Positions 2-26,843 of a stretch of DNA of 64,000 nt are shown here, one piece after another. Source of the DNA: Verrucomicrobiota bacterium (lineage in GTDB: Bacteria; Verrucomicrobiota; Verrucomicrobiia; Opitutales; Opitutaceae); the NCBI GenBank assembly GCA_018239845.1, contig JAFEGO010000092.1, positions 62,001-126,000 on the forward strand, given 5' to 3'. The translations under genes were made by a program, and so were the position numbers. Position 1 is the first letter of the stretch, and every line of letters begins with the position of its first letter. A model generated the notes under the pieces. That model had not been told where the DNA came from and searched no databases. It worked only from the letters and a program-made list of their open reading frames with translations.

Positions 2-1717
2 ACGTTTCGCGTGAACGAAAAAGGCTTCGCGCTGGAGATCGACTGGACGTGCGTGAAAACTTTTCACGCGAGCGAGCTCGCGGCGCTGCGCCTGCCCTTC
101 GACCTCTTCCGCTCGGTCGTCAACGTCATGGCGATGCCCGATCCGCGCGGACCCTCGGGCCTCATCTCGTTCCCGGCCCTGATCCAGGCGCCGAACTACG
201 GCGCCATGCGCGTGACGGTGCGCGAGGGTGCGGCGCTCGGGCGCATCACGCCGCTGCGCGCGCAGGCGGAGCTGTGGCTCGACCTGATCCCCGGCGCGGT
301 GCCGCTGCCCAGCGGACTGCTCGAGCTGCCTGCGGGCCGCGGCCGCGTGGTGTTCGATTTCACGCTGACGAAGGTCTTCCCCTTCGGCGTGGAGGATATG
401 CGCGACATTTTCGCGTGGTGGGAAATGCCGCCGTTTTATTCGTTCGTGGGGTTGGAGCCGGTCCTCGGCGCGTTGAGCGACGCGTGGCTCAACGGCATCT
501 CGTTCCGTCCCGATCTCGGCCGCTTCGCCAACAACTCGGTCGCGGACTCGGTGGCCCTGTGTGCGTGCTACTACGCGGATCTCGCCGCGTATACCCCGCC
601 GCTCGCCGACGGGCTCGATTCACGGCAGTTCATCCGCGTGGCAACGGAGCAGATGATGCGCGACCGCAACTCCAGCATCTACTCCAACTGGAAACATTTC
701 CCCATGGCGGCGACGAGCCCGGTGGACTGCGCGTGGCTCTATGTGGCGTCGACCGGCGACTGGGACTGGGCGAAGCGCTGGCGCGATGCGATCCGCCACT
801 ATGCGCACATCCTGAAGCAAATGGAGTGGCAGGACACCGGCCTCATCGCCTCCGAGGAGTCGGGCATCCCCGAGGAAGCCGCCGCGACCCACGCCAACAT
901 GCAGTGCACCTGGGCCGACAGCGCACGCTCCGGCCATCTCGAATCCTACGTCAACGCCCACGGCTACCGCGCCCTGTTGCGCGTGGCCGATCTGCTCGAC
1001 CAGCTCGACGATGCGCCCGGCGCAGCGGCGGCGCGCGCGCAGGCGGGCCGGCTGAAGGCCAGCTTCATGGCTACGTTTTACGACGCCGCGACAAAACAGA
1101 TCATGCAGTGGATCGGGCGCGACGGCCGCCGCCACGGCTACCGCTCGCATATGCACCTCGGCTCGGCGGTGGCCCTCGGCCTCGTGCCGGAGGAGACTGC
1201 GCGCGAACTCCTGCGCGAACACCTCGCGCAGATGGAGGCGCGCGGCACCCGCTACGAGTGGGGCCTGCCCATCTACCTCGATCCCACCCCGGAGGTCGCC
1301 CACAACACCTGGCACGGCAAGGGCGTCGAGCCCGACGGCAGCGATCTTTTCGGCGTGTATCAAAACGGCTCCCTGCACACGCACCAAACCTGGTACTTCC
1401 TGCAGGCGCTCTACCACACCGGCCTGCGCAAGGAGGCCAACGATCTCTTCGTGAAGATGACCGCGCTGGTCCGCACCGGACAGCTCTGCGGTCCGCTGCA
1501 TTCCGGCGTCGATTGGCGGCATCCCGTCAGCGGCCGCCCGGTGGGCTATGAGGGCCTGCTCTCGGAGCAGTTCCACTTCCTGCTCGCGGCGGTCACCGGC
1601 TACCTCGGGTGTGAGCTCACGATCGACGGCCTCGTGATCAAGGGCCCGGCGACGGAGCGCATCCGGATGTTGAAACCCAACTTTGCGCGCATGGCGCCGA
1701 CGCAACCCAAAGCCTAA
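2..1717 (+). CDS. MGH1-like glycoside hydrolase, 5' end outside window
   Basis: The reading frame is open from the left edge, with Thr-Phe-Arg codons before the GTG at 11, so the gene starts outside the window; 571 residues are visible. The central and C-terminal parts have the pattern of an (alpha/alpha)6-barrel, six-hairpin glycosidase of the MGH1/GH63/trehalase-like group: many Trp- and His-rich helices, WKHFPMAAT, an EESG segment, THANMQCTWADS, and GLPIYLDPTP followed by WHGKGVEPDGSD. The visible N-terminal stretch looks like a beta-rich accessory domain. The probable role is hydrolysis of an oligosaccharide, substrate unknown. No signal peptide can be judged because the start is missing. 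An NTF2-like gene follows after 11 nt and may be cotranscribed. Confidence 0.72.
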   Translation, partial: TFRVNEKGFALEIDWTCVKTFHASELAALRLPFDLFRSVVNVMAMPDPRGPSGLISFPALIQAPNYGAMRVTVREGAALGRITPLRAQAELWLDLIPGAVPLPSGLLELPAGRGRVVFDFTLTKVFPFGVEDMRDIFAWWEMPPFYSFVGLEPVLGALSDAWLNGISFRPDLGRFANNSVADSVALCACYYADLAAYTPPLADGLDSRQFIRVATEQMMRDRNSSIYSNWKHFPMAATSPVDCAWLYVASTGDWDWAKRWRDAIRHYAHILKQMEWQDTGLIASEESGIPEEAAATHANMQCTWADSARSGHLESYVNAHGYRALLRVADLLDQLDDAPGAAAARAQAGRLKASFMATFYDAATKQIMQWIGRDGRRHGYRSHMHLGSAVALGLVPEETARELLREHLAQMEARGTRYEWGLPIYLDPTPEVAHNTWHGKGVEPDGSDLFGVYQNGSLHTHQTWYFLQALYHTGLRKEANDLFVKMTALVRTGQLCGPLHSGVDWRHPVSGRPVGYEGLLSEQFHFLLAAVTGYLGCELTIDGLVIKGPATERIRMLKPNFARMAPTQPKA

Positions 1718-23703: not shown

Positions 23704-24576
23704 TCAGTGCGGATTGTTGAGAAACGTGTTCCAGACGGCGATGAGGGATTGGTCGGGGAACCAGAAGGTGAGGCTGGCGGTGGCGGGCGGGATGCCGGGG
23801 GCGATCAGCTTTTTTTGGTCGAGGTCGAGGACGATGCCGGTGCGCTCGGCGGCGGGGCGGTCGAAGCTCGCCAGGACGGCGGCGAAGAAAGGGAGGGCGA
23901 GATCGTTGGCGTTGGCGGTGTTGTGGCCGCACTTGGACTCGATGGCCAGGCACCAGCGCGCGCCGAGCTTGCGATTGGGTTCGTAGAATTTGCGGCTGGC
24001 GGCGCGGTAGCGCTGGTCCTTGGCCCCGGCGATGAAGAGGCCGGGGATGGCGCGCACGGCGTCGGTGGGCGGGATGATGAAGCCGCCGCCTTTGTTGGAG
24101 ACGAAGGCGGCGACGCGCTCCGGGCAGAAGCAGGCGAAGTTGTAGCTGAACTCGCCGCCGGCGGAAAGGCCCATGACGAAGAGCGGGACTTTTTCGAACT
24201 CGGGGTGGCCGCTTTGTTGGCCGAGGGCGGCGAGGGCGTTGAGCAGGGCGCGGCCGCTGCCGCGGTCGGCCTTGGTGTAGTGGAAGAAATCGGTGAGGTC
24301 CTCGGTGGCGAAGTAGCAGGCGACGAGGGCGAGCTGATGGTCACGCGCGAAGTTTTGCCACTGCGGGCGGCCATCGACGTTGATGCCGTCGAGCACGATG
24401 GCAATGCCGCGGACGGGGCCGGCCGGGACGTCATCCGGCAGCCAGAGATGAAAGGCGGCCTTGTCGAATGTCTCCCTGGGCTGGCGCGGGATATCGACGT
24501 CGCAGGTCGCGGCGAAGGCGGTGGAGGTGAAAGCGACTGTGCAGAGGAGAAGACCGAGGAGCGAGGGGTGGCGCAT
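23704..24576 (-). CDS. secreted alpha/beta hydrolase-like esterase
   Basis: A 290-residue protein with a signal peptide (SLLGLLLCTVAFTSTAFA). ATG 24576 is chosen. The frame extends to 24849, but that adds 91 low-quality residues over repeat DNA. The nucleophile elbow GLSAGG and an 'FHYTKADRGSG' segment, with a late His in 'ESKCGHNTAN', fit the alpha/beta-hydrolase triad Ser-Asp/Glu-His. It may act on an ester or polysaccharide-linked group outside the cell; the substrate is unknown. It converges with the HEAT gene, with 26 nt between stops. Confidence 0.78.
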   Translation of the reverse strand: MRHPSLLGLLLCTVAFTSTAFAATCDVDIPRQPRETFDKAAFHLWLPDDVPAGPVRGIAIVLDGINVDGRPQWQNFARDHQLALVACYFATEDLTDFFHYTKADRGSGRALLNALAALGQQSGHPEFEKVPLFVMGLSAGGEFSYNFACFCPERVAAFVSNKGGGFIIPPTDAVRAIPGLFIAGAKDQRYRAASRKFYEPNRKLGARWCLAIESKCGHNTANANDLALPFFAAVLASFDRPAAERTGIVLDLDQKKLIAPGIPPATASLTFWFPDQSLIAVWNTFLNNPH

Positions 24577-24642
24577 GGCGGGGTGAAGTGAGAGTGGAGT
24601 CGGGTGGGCGGAGGCGCAACGAGGGCGGGCGGAAGTATTTGG

Positions 24643-24669
24643 CCACGGATTACACGAATGGCACGGATA
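24643..24669 (-). repeat. half nonamer-repeat element (CACGGATTA words)
   Basis: Three 9-nt words CCACGGATT, ACACGAATG, GCACGGATA, upstream of the hydrolase start, with no inverted partner. Confidence 0.55.
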
Positions 24670-24800
24670 GCCGATCCGGTTGAACCACTTCTGGGCACTG
24701 AGGAGCACTGATGACGAGCGGGACGGACATGGCGACGGGAACGCCTGTGCTGGTGAGCGTCGTATGAGATGGCGATGGCGCCGAAATAGGGGTTGGGGTG

Positions 24801-24877
24801 AGTTTTGTCCGATAGTCGGACATTTTTCCAAGTTTTGTCCGATTTGCATTTAGGCTAAAGTCCGTAATACGGACTTT
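24801..24877. promoter_or_regulatory. cluster of palindromic operator-like sites with TCCG half-sites
   Basis: A palindrome TGTCCGA-TAG-TCGGACA at 24806-24822, the same 13-nt word AGTTTTGTCCGAT repeated at 24801 and 24831, and a perfect 21-nt palindrome at 24857-24877 (AAAGTCCGTA, one central A, then its complement). Together they look like binding sites of a dimeric helix-turn-helix repressor, similar in style to antitoxin operators. No regulator gene is next to them. Confidence 0.6.
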
Positions 24878-25049
24878 GTATCACAATGATTTTAAAATAG
24901 TTAATGTATAATTAGTATTGCAAATTCAGGTGTTTTTAGGCGATGCCTGCTATCGCGGTTGCGCGATGGGGGCGGGGGAGGAGAGGTGGGGCGGGGGGGA
25001 CGAGAACGAAGGGTCGCGGGGTAAACCCGCTCCTACAGGGGCAAGAAAA

Positions 25050-25073
25050 AGGCCGCCCGTTGCGGGGCGGCCT
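25050..25073 (-). terminator. intrinsic terminator of the RNase G/E gene
   Basis: AGGCCGCCC (25050-25058) pairs with GGGCGGCCT (25065-25073). On the minus strand the stem is followed by TTTTT. It lies 22 nt past the rng stop. Confidence 0.85.
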
Positions 25074-25094
25074 GGGGGAAGAACTGTAATCGGT

Positions 25095-26843
25095 TTAGCG
25101 ATACTCTTCGCCGGTGAGGGCGTTGATGATTTTGAAGTTCTCGACGTGGTAGTTCATGTCGGCGCGGAAGGCCAGCTTCACACCGAACAACTTCTCCATG
25201 CGGACGAGGAGCTCGGCGTCCTCGCTGCGGAGGCGTTCGAGGATGCTCGGGTGCACGAGGACGCGCAGCGAGTACTCCTTGCCGTCGTTGCGCAGCTGGA
25301 GGCGGCGGACGACGGAGCTGAGCTTGCGCTGGAGCTCGACCGACATCGTCGTGGCGCTCTTCACGATGCCGCGGCCGCGGCAGTAGGGGCAGTCCGTGTA
25401 GAGGTTGCTCGAGAGGGACTCCTGCTGGCGCTGGCGCGTCATCTGGAGGATGCCGAGGGTGGAGATGGGGAGGATGTGGTTCTTGGCCTTGTCGTGGGCC
25501 ATCTCCTGGACCATGCGCTCGTACACGGCGTTGCGGTGGCGGCGCTCCTTCATGTCGATGAAGTCGATGATGAGGAGACCGCCGAGGTTGCGGAGGCGGA
25601 TCTGGCGCGCGGCCTCGCTGGCGGCCTCGAGGTTGACGGCGTAGATGACGTTCTTCTCGTCGCCGCCGCGGGACTTGTGGGAGCCGGTGTTGACGTCGAT
25701 GGAGATGAGGGCCTCGGTCTCGTCGATGACGATTTCGCCGCCGGAGGGGAGCGGGACCTTGCGCTGGCCGGTCTGCTCGATCTGGCGCTCGATGTTGAAG
25801 CGTTCGAAGATCGGTATGCTGTCGTTGTAGAACGCGATCTTGGAGGCGGAGCGCTTGGAGATCTGGCCGACGAGCTTCTGGGTGCGCTCGTGGTCTTCCT
25901 TGCGGTCGATGAGGACGCGGTCGACCTCCTCGGTGAGGAAATCGCGGACGGTGCGCTCGACGAGGTCGGGCTCCTGGTAGAGGCACGCGGGGGCGCGGTC
26001 GCTCTGCATCTTGGCGGTGATGCCCTGCCAGGTTTTTAGGAGGATGTGGAGGTCGCGGACGAAGTAGCGGGCTTTCTTGCCCTCGCCGGCGGTGCGGACG
26101 ATGACGCCCATGCCCTCGGGGATGGTGAGCTCGTTGATGAGGGTCTTGAGGCGCTTGCGCTCCTGGGGGTCCTCGATCTTGCGGGAGATGCCGCAGCCGT
26201 CAGAGAACGGGGTGAGGATGAGGTAGCGGCCGGGGAGGGAGAGGTTGGTCGTGGTGCGGGGGCCCTTGGTGCCGATGGGGCCCTTGGTGACCTGGATGAC
26301 GATGTCGGTGCCCGGGGGGTACATGCCGGGGATGTCCTTCACGGTGGGCTCGGCCGGGCGGGGCGGGGCGTTCTTCTTCTTGTTGACGCGCACGACCTCG
26401 ACGGAGGAGTCGGTGGCGGCGGGGAGCATGTCCCAGTAGTGGAGGAAGGCGTTCTTGGCGTAGCCGATGTCGACGAAGGCGGCCTTGAGGCCGGGGTCGA
26501 GGTTCTTGATGCGGCCCTTGTAGATGCCGCCGACCATGCGGTCGTCGGACTCGCGCTCGATCTCGAACTTCTCCAGGCGGCCGTCGACGAGGAGCGCGAC
26601 GCGCTTCTCGAGGGGCTCGGAGTTGATGATGAGTTCGCGGTAGGAGCCCTTGTCCTTTTTGAAGACCGCGAGGATCTTCTGGAGGAGGGGGCGCTGCTTG
26701 GCGCGCTCCTCGGCGCCGGCCTTCAGCTCGGCGGAGCTGACGGGGGCGGAGTTGCTGGCCGGGGGCGGGTTGACGAGTTCCTCGTCATACTTCTGGGCGA
26801 CATCCTGGGGGATGCCGGAGTTGGGTTGCGATTGATCGCTCAT
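25095..26843 (-). CDS. rng: ribonuclease G/E family endoribonuclease
   Basis: A 582-residue Rne/Rng protein. An N-terminal region with '[17 protein letters not shown]' precedes an S1-like RNA-binding domain ('[24 protein letters not shown]'). The catalytic Asp pair of RNase E, D303 and D346, is matched by '[12 protein letters not shown]' and '[11 protein letters not shown]'. The Zn-link CPYCRGRG is near the C-terminus. The long acidic scaffold of E. coli RNase E is absent, so this is G-like; the size is between the two. It cleaves single-stranded RNA with 5' monophosphate for rRNA maturation and mRNA decay. The start is ATG 26843. RodA lies downstream in the reverse order upstream of it (96 nt), and a terminator follows the stop. 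Confidence 0.92.

Follow-up and report, generated by a model that had tools for sequence, protein, structure and literature searches.

The locus lies in a window of 64,000 nucleotides, the whole stretch of contig JAFEGO010000092.1 that was analysed, from a verrucomicrobial genome of the family Opitutaceae. A cluster of half-sites spans positions 24806-24877 on the plus strand and consists of two parts. The first is a 46-bp unit, made up of the 17-nt palindrome TGTCCGATAGTCGGACA (24806-24822) and, after it, the half-site stretch GTTTTGTCCGATTTGCAT (24832-24849), whose core is GTCCGATTTGCA. The second is the 21-nt palindrome AAAGTCCGTAATACGGACTTT (24857-24877), which is perfect apart from its single central base. 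An AT-rich stretch follows on the same strand (24880-24935) and contains a TATAAT at 24907-24912. The half-site cluster, the 21-nt palindrome and the TATAAT had been recorded in the initial annotation, and the positions of all three were confirmed in the sequence.

The cluster sits between two minus-strand genes. On its right, the 3′ end of a ribonuclease E/G gene (rng, 25095-26843; PF10150, E 2.4e-97) faces the cluster. On its left, a 290-aa reading frame, located at about 23704-24576, starts about 230 bp away; by eye it is esterase- or depolymerase-like, and it has no Pfam match at E ≤ 0.01. The cluster had been described as one that no gene follows, which is correct in the rightward direction but not on the minus strand, where this frame starts. 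No -35 partner was found for the TATAAT, and the region 24570-25100 contains no sigma-70-like promoter. AT-rich DNA also lies 3′ of most other copies of the 46-bp unit. Rfam gave two sub-threshold matches (best E 0.4), both near the end of rng and outside the cluster. At 25008-25036, the window further contains an inverted repeat whose plus-strand end is CTAC (GTAG on the minus strand), which resembles the GTAG-type REPs known from Opitutus terrae.

Sequence statistics single out the near-exact arrangement of the half-sites only, since the generic half-site and a loosely matched pattern are unenriched in the window: TGTCCG is depleted (20 observed vs 42 expected), and TGTCCG-N5-CGGACA with 3 mismatches shows no enrichment (25 vs 45 expected). 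With up to 3 mismatches allowed, the window contains the 21-mer once, vs 0 of 100 shuffles, and the half-site stretch occurs once vs 0.01 expected.

Two repeats and a bracketed helix-turn-helix gene

A genome search with 24780-24930 gave seven further matches, some of which represent the 46-bp unit and others only the class of the 21-nt palindrome. The 46-bp unit, which is built of a palindrome, 13-14 bases and TGTCCGATTTGCA, recurs in its own genome (G000) with E values down to 1.5e-14. By eye, it is present at about nine places (C6, C10, C11, C53, C60, C83, C108, C115 and C117), with altered copies in C10, C11, C60 and C108. This genome has 6 places with the core GTCCGATTTGCA, and G021, a genome of the same genus, has none. 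The core is matched in 17 of 61 family genomes; in the matches from other genomes that were examined, no 46-bp unit surrounds the core, so that these look like chance. A small conserved peptide (MQIGQN...), obtained by reading the unit in reverse, was dropped because the C108 copy, by eye, has no ATG there. At G000:C53 (L038:3288-4357), a Phd/PIN toxin-antitoxin-like pair adjoins a copy of the unit.

The 21-mer class, defined by the pattern TGTNCGTAWTACGNACA, is found at 13 exact places in the same genome and at 21 places with up to 2 mismatches; the reversed-pattern control gave 0. Ten of the exact places are of the TGTTCG kind and three of the TGTCCG kind. Among 120 family genomes, 16 carry exact copies, as many as 20 in one genome, and none was found in G021. 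Absence of the motif elsewhere would have spoken against the initial annotation; the palindrome is in fact a repeated motif with the look of a binding site. Both repeats share the TGTCCG-N5-CGGACA spacing, and the 46-bp unit may be read by the same protein as the 21-mer; its inner bases are AT instead of TA, unlike those of nearly all bracketing palindromes.

The window palindrome is a solo copy of a class that brackets a gene elsewhere in the genome (G000:C2:56457-56831). Two TGTCCG-type palindromes enclose this 125-codon gene within C2:56437-56853, one before its start and one directly after its stop. The product, of about 125 aa, is an XRE/Cro-like helix-turn-helix (HTH) protein. The suggestion to look for the palindrome upstream of HTH genes was thereby borne out in the bacterium's own genome. 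An equal layout with TGTTCG palindromes is present in G083 and G074, and in G052 the exact window 21-mer stands on both sides of a gene that is 54% identical to the C2 protein (L173/L242).

The protein family has a patchy distribution. A protein search found it in 54 of 120 family genomes; the own genome has two matches, at C2 and C14, G021 has none, and no relatives were found in viral contigs. The loci that were read comprise 70 from the listing of this search and 32 from a scan of named genomes, whose titles include Opitutus, Lacunisphaera, Rariglobus, Ereboglobus, Synoicihabitans and other Opitutaceae or Verrucomicrobiota, together with two Akkermansia(ceae)-labelled MAGs. Twelve of these 102 duplicated a locus already included; without them, 90 non-redundant loci remain. 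The genes have no constant partner: relatives of any one neighbouring frame occur in at most 3 other loci of the 90.

Five genomes in which a TGTTCG-bracketed gene was read (G074, G083, G099, G102 and G106) contain 3 to 20 exact palindromes; the gene of G102 (L181) has one mismatch in its downstream palindrome. Exact palindromes also occur in 11 of the other 115 genomes, where no TGTTCG-bracketed gene was read. The one-contig genome G020 (C1) carries 14 TGTTCG palindromes and no gene of that class among the genes read, a case suggesting that orphan sites may outlive their gene. For the 10 TGTTCG copies in the own genome, too, the cognate gene is absent among the genes read. A second bracketed gene, or cassette, of the own genome lies at G000:C14 (L200, about 953-1303, minus strand); it is bracketed by TTTGTAGTTTATTAAACTACAAA-type palindromes and has ATCGGACA half-sites upstream, as in the 46-bp unit.

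Protein fold and the match between helix and half-site

Searched alone, the C2 protein matched nothing in Pfam, NCBIfam or PADLOC, and against PHROGs it gave weak matches only, to entries whose function is unknown in that collection (best E 0.011). Across the single-sequence scans as a whole, NCBIfam and PADLOC yielded nothing, and Pfam as well as PHROGs matched weakly at most. A member-by-member scan matched YdaS_toxin in 11 of 16 proteins (best E 1.3e-4) and HTH_3 in 4 of 16 (best E 1.9e-5). The AlphaFold2 model of the L240 member consists of an N-terminal helix and a helical HTH domain (pLDDT 82.5, pTM 0.55), and the family is characterized by this N-terminal helix, a basic linker and a conserved PDAER motif. 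With the same model, Foldseek listed mostly XRE proteins, and VIA-align scores for residues 53-119 reached Z 7.9 at most, which the tool itself describes as common. As modelled, the HTH domain is of the XRE/lambda-repressor fold, with Z below 8 and no Foldseek match at E ≤ 0.001. Two other assignments were rejected: HNF-1, which is highest in VIA-align (Z 7.9, 2.4 Å, 66 residues) at a level common for helical models, and homeobox proteins, which provide most chains in a PDB profile search, with E 0.03 and above.

The family resembles YdaS/Cro-like regulators in its weak Pfam matches and in structure (YdaS chain 8c7k, Z 5.5, rmsd 2.0, 52 residues), but differs from them in the N-terminal helix, the basic linker and the PDAER motif, and in having no relative in viral contigs. 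Its fold is like that of HipB/HigA antitoxins only as it is like XRE proteins in general. No nuclease or transposase domain was seen in the protein scans, in which absence of a match is not proof, and the bracketed proteins scanned gave no Y1_Tnp match.

Palindromes flanking the genes were accepted if they were odd in length, at least 15 nt long, and had an A/T centre and restricted inner bases. Across the 90 loci, the nearest upstream palindrome has its centre a median of 26 bp before the expected start, and the nearest downstream palindrome a median of 25 bp past the stop. A palindrome pair on both sides that agrees in at least 6 of 7 half-site bases was found in 56 of the 90 loci, and an identical 7-nt half-site on both sides in 47. 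The shuffling control applies to the latter count: when upstream and downstream sides were shuffled between loci (2000 shuffles), 7/7 agreement had a mean of 4.26 and a maximum of 11. Thirty-four of the 90 loci fail the both-sides criterion, some of them carrying palindromes that the script did not accept.

Within the 56 loci, half-site distance follows the 12 residues of the recognition helix (r = 0.67) and hardly the rest of the conserved protein (0.14). For helix and half-site, a partial correlation of 0.66 compares with 0.19 for the best of 2000 permutations. Permutation leaves some effects of descent in place; the partial correlation argues against descent alone as a sufficient cause of the match. 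The covariation favours a specific reading of the palindrome by the protein. Individual half-sites go with characteristic helices. The CGAAC half-site is found with HRAR[IV]GE or HKARVGE (9 loci), CGGAC with HPSRITE and HVSRVTE (own C2 and G052), CGGA with HCSRITE, GTGAC or GTTAC with PRQR, and GCAA, GCCA and GCTA with DPSR or DPAR.

Related loci can differ in the gene and in both palindromes. L203 (G083:C12, about 428100) and L204 (G040:C1, about 2627600) occupy the same chromosomal place and are 92% and 85% identical in the outside DNA, but only 66% identical in the gene. The core is TTTTGCG..CGCAAAA in both palindromes of L203 and TTTGCCG..CGGCAAA in both of L204, so that gene and palindromes changed together in an apparent re-coding of specificity. 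In L204, a TGA is present in sequence that the script appended beyond the stop; the gene itself is unaffected. A similar pair, L182/L186, is 81% and 88% identical outside and 67% in the gene, and its arms are GTGAAA vs ATGAAA. The orthologous loci L171 and L240, by contrast, have an unchanged core.

Since G052 carries the exact 21-mer around its 54% identical gene, and since the C2 protein has a CGGAC-type helix that matches the CGGAC arms of the window palindrome, the C2 protein is most likely the one that reads 24857-24877. The initial annotation had named a distant regulator as a potential reader, and the C2 gene, bracketed by the palindrome class, fits that part as the likely cognate gene. 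The site may also serve as a decoy or in an architectural role, as the annotation proposed. We consider it probable that the window's 21-nt palindrome belongs, as a solo copy, to a set of dispersed sites that are read by a distant, self-bracketed XRE/Cro-like protein (C2:56457-56831). The HTH protein would bind the palindrome as a dimer, and the upstream copy would repress its own gene. Solo copies would be further binding sites, dispersed with or from cassettes, and could outlive the cassette gene. In the window, none of the transcription units shows evident control, and the site is therefore most likely a weakly used or neutral binding site, as opposed to a lost module's operator.

Position of the copies and alternative readings

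Genomic context was assigned with a home-made gene caller for 59 sites or clusters, the window included. Twenty-six lie between tandem genes, 12 between convergent and 8 between divergent genes, 11 are inside genes, and 2 are at contig edges. Alternatively, the protein could be an XRE regulator of the ordinary autoregulated kind that controls a small regulon, in which the solo palindromes are working operators and the window cluster serves the 290-aa minus-strand frame about 230 bp away. The 26 tandem and 8 divergent sites would suit such a regulon, as would the upstream palindrome close to the start codon, with its centre a median of 26 bp ahead. The autoregulated XRE regulators of PMC12565409 combine an HTH fold with a palindrome upstream of their own gene, as here. 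The bracketed genes differ from these regulators in the second palindrome directly behind the stop codon, in the dispersed solo copies, some of them in genes, and in their patchy occurrence among relatives. The 12 sites between convergent genes and the 11 inside genes also speak against a regulon, as do the absence of both gene and sites from the same-genus G021 and the genomes that have sites and no cognate gene among those read. We regard this reading as unlikely.

Two of the in-gene copies were compared with related sequences. The copy in C75 (L052:3941-3957; G000:C75:8440-8456) lies inside an ABC transporter gene, which over 2411 bases is equal in length to its counterpart in G021 and gapless around the site, with the bases differing as a block. 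In C59, the Fpg-like protein encoded around the copy is gapless there against the solved Fpg 1tdz, though the alignment with 1ee8 has gaps nearby. These copies replace bases in place, without insertion, which is not explained by simple transposition. In 66 copies, the stem continues past the 17-mer by a mean of 3.5 pairs vs about 0.4 expected, an extension that includes the AA..TT belonging to the motif itself. The stems of many copies exceed the length that a binding site requires, and at L147:2986 (G099:C30:171685) the palindrome centres a perfect inverted repeat of at least 51 bases.

Palindromes with extended stems, arranged in part as doublets at 44-119 bp (12 of 54 clusters), could also be repeats of the REP/REPIN type that a RAYT (Y1 tyrosine transposase) mobilises and that surround the HTH gene by chance. 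In PMC3116915, REPINs are defined as REP doublets that form hairpins. REPtrons and TIRtrons, described in PMC3733652, are RAYT or RAYT-like genes with their own dispersed repeats on either side, and O. terrae is presented there as rich in GTAG repeats, with RAYT genes flanked by their repeats. Y1_Tnp genes are present in all 8 of the 8 genomes searched, two of them in the own genome. As in REPtrons and TIRtrons, a gene is flanked here by palindromic repeats that are also dispersed as singlets and doublets, mostly outside genes. Unlike in those systems, the gene encodes an HTH protein in which a Y1 domain was not detected, the repeats have no GTAG/CGTC tag, and the half-sites track the recognition helix. 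GTAG or CGTC abuts 0 of 66 copies, the own RAYT locus that was read (L288) has no such palindrome, and G021 has Y1_Tnp but no palindromes. Nor do inverted doublets predominate, as only 7 of the 12 doublets have inverted centres. Mobilisation by a RAYT is very improbable on these grounds.

We also give little credence to intrinsic or bidirectional transcription terminators as the nature of the palindromes. The 24806-24822 palindrome is followed by TTTTT and scored terminator-like, the mean stem extension of 3.5 pairs past the 17-mer would suit a hairpin terminator, and several copies lie at gene ends; but the cores are conserved in sequence, beyond pairing alone, and match the HTH helix, some copies are inside genes, and by eye a T run is absent in most copies read. 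That a toxin-antitoxin module was lost here and left the cluster as a relic, as considered in the initial annotation, is scarcely credible. Operator style and the XRE antitoxin-like fold would fit such a relic, and at C53 the Phd/PIN pair adjoins a single other copy of the 46-bp unit, yet the cognate genes are single, with no constant partner in the 90 loci, and the motif is found at many places without a module. SOS boxes of LexA have next to no probability: the TGTTC..GAACA half-sites look like the LexA box of Verrucomicrobia, TGTTC-N4-GAACA, but their spacing differs (N7), and the sole LexA domain match (C107:22463) has, by eye, GTGCTC-N4-GAGCAC-like repeats upstream and none of these palindromes.

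Possible dispersal of the cassettes

Flank homology is absent in 126 of 137 locus pairs with gene homology, so the genes lie at unrelated places, and this, together with the patchy distribution, favours dispersal. We infer from these comparisons that the cassettes may be mobile. L243/L250 was rejected as an instance of cassette-confined homology: because both loci have a further shared stretch downstream, the pair was counted as flank homology and not used as proof of mobility. A clean insertion junction in G021 was not seen at C2, C53 or C26. There, 1688 bp at C2 (alanine racemase gene included), 1069 bp at C53 (Phd/PIN pair included) and 760 bp at C26 compare with 36, 14 and 68 bp in G021, respectively; two C14 cassette stretches were left out of this comparison. 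The window stretches had no locus match in G021, where the contig with rng ends inside the gene. A survey of the open-licence literature (REPIN/RAYT, Opitutaceae palindromes, Verrucomicrobia REPs and bracketed HTH genes) found no description of this arrangement, which is weak evidence of absence.

It is conceivable, if rather doubtful, that the cassettes form a new class of minimal selfish unit, in which a DNA-binding gene with no nuclease detected is delimited by its own palindromes. Such a unit would disperse as cassette, doublet or solo site and re-code helix and both palindromes together, and the window cluster would be one of its footprints. Should the cassettes spread, they would represent gene units with their own binding sites as limits and without a known mobilising enzyme, a point that bears on the origin of dispersed palindromes in bacteria. 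The 56 genes, each adjoining its own putative target, offer a natural protein-DNA recognition series in which the helix predicts the half-site and the rest of the protein hardly does. In these genomes, an orphan operator need not mean a lost neighbour.

In viral contigs, the palindrome pattern was found at 59 stretches, mostly with other words, a number near a rough chance estimate for which the collection size was assumed. The IMG/VR contigs L314, L326, L340 and L345 contain paired related words (e.g. TGTACGTATTACGGACA) that lie 44 or 52 bp apart and are possibly phage operators of similar design.
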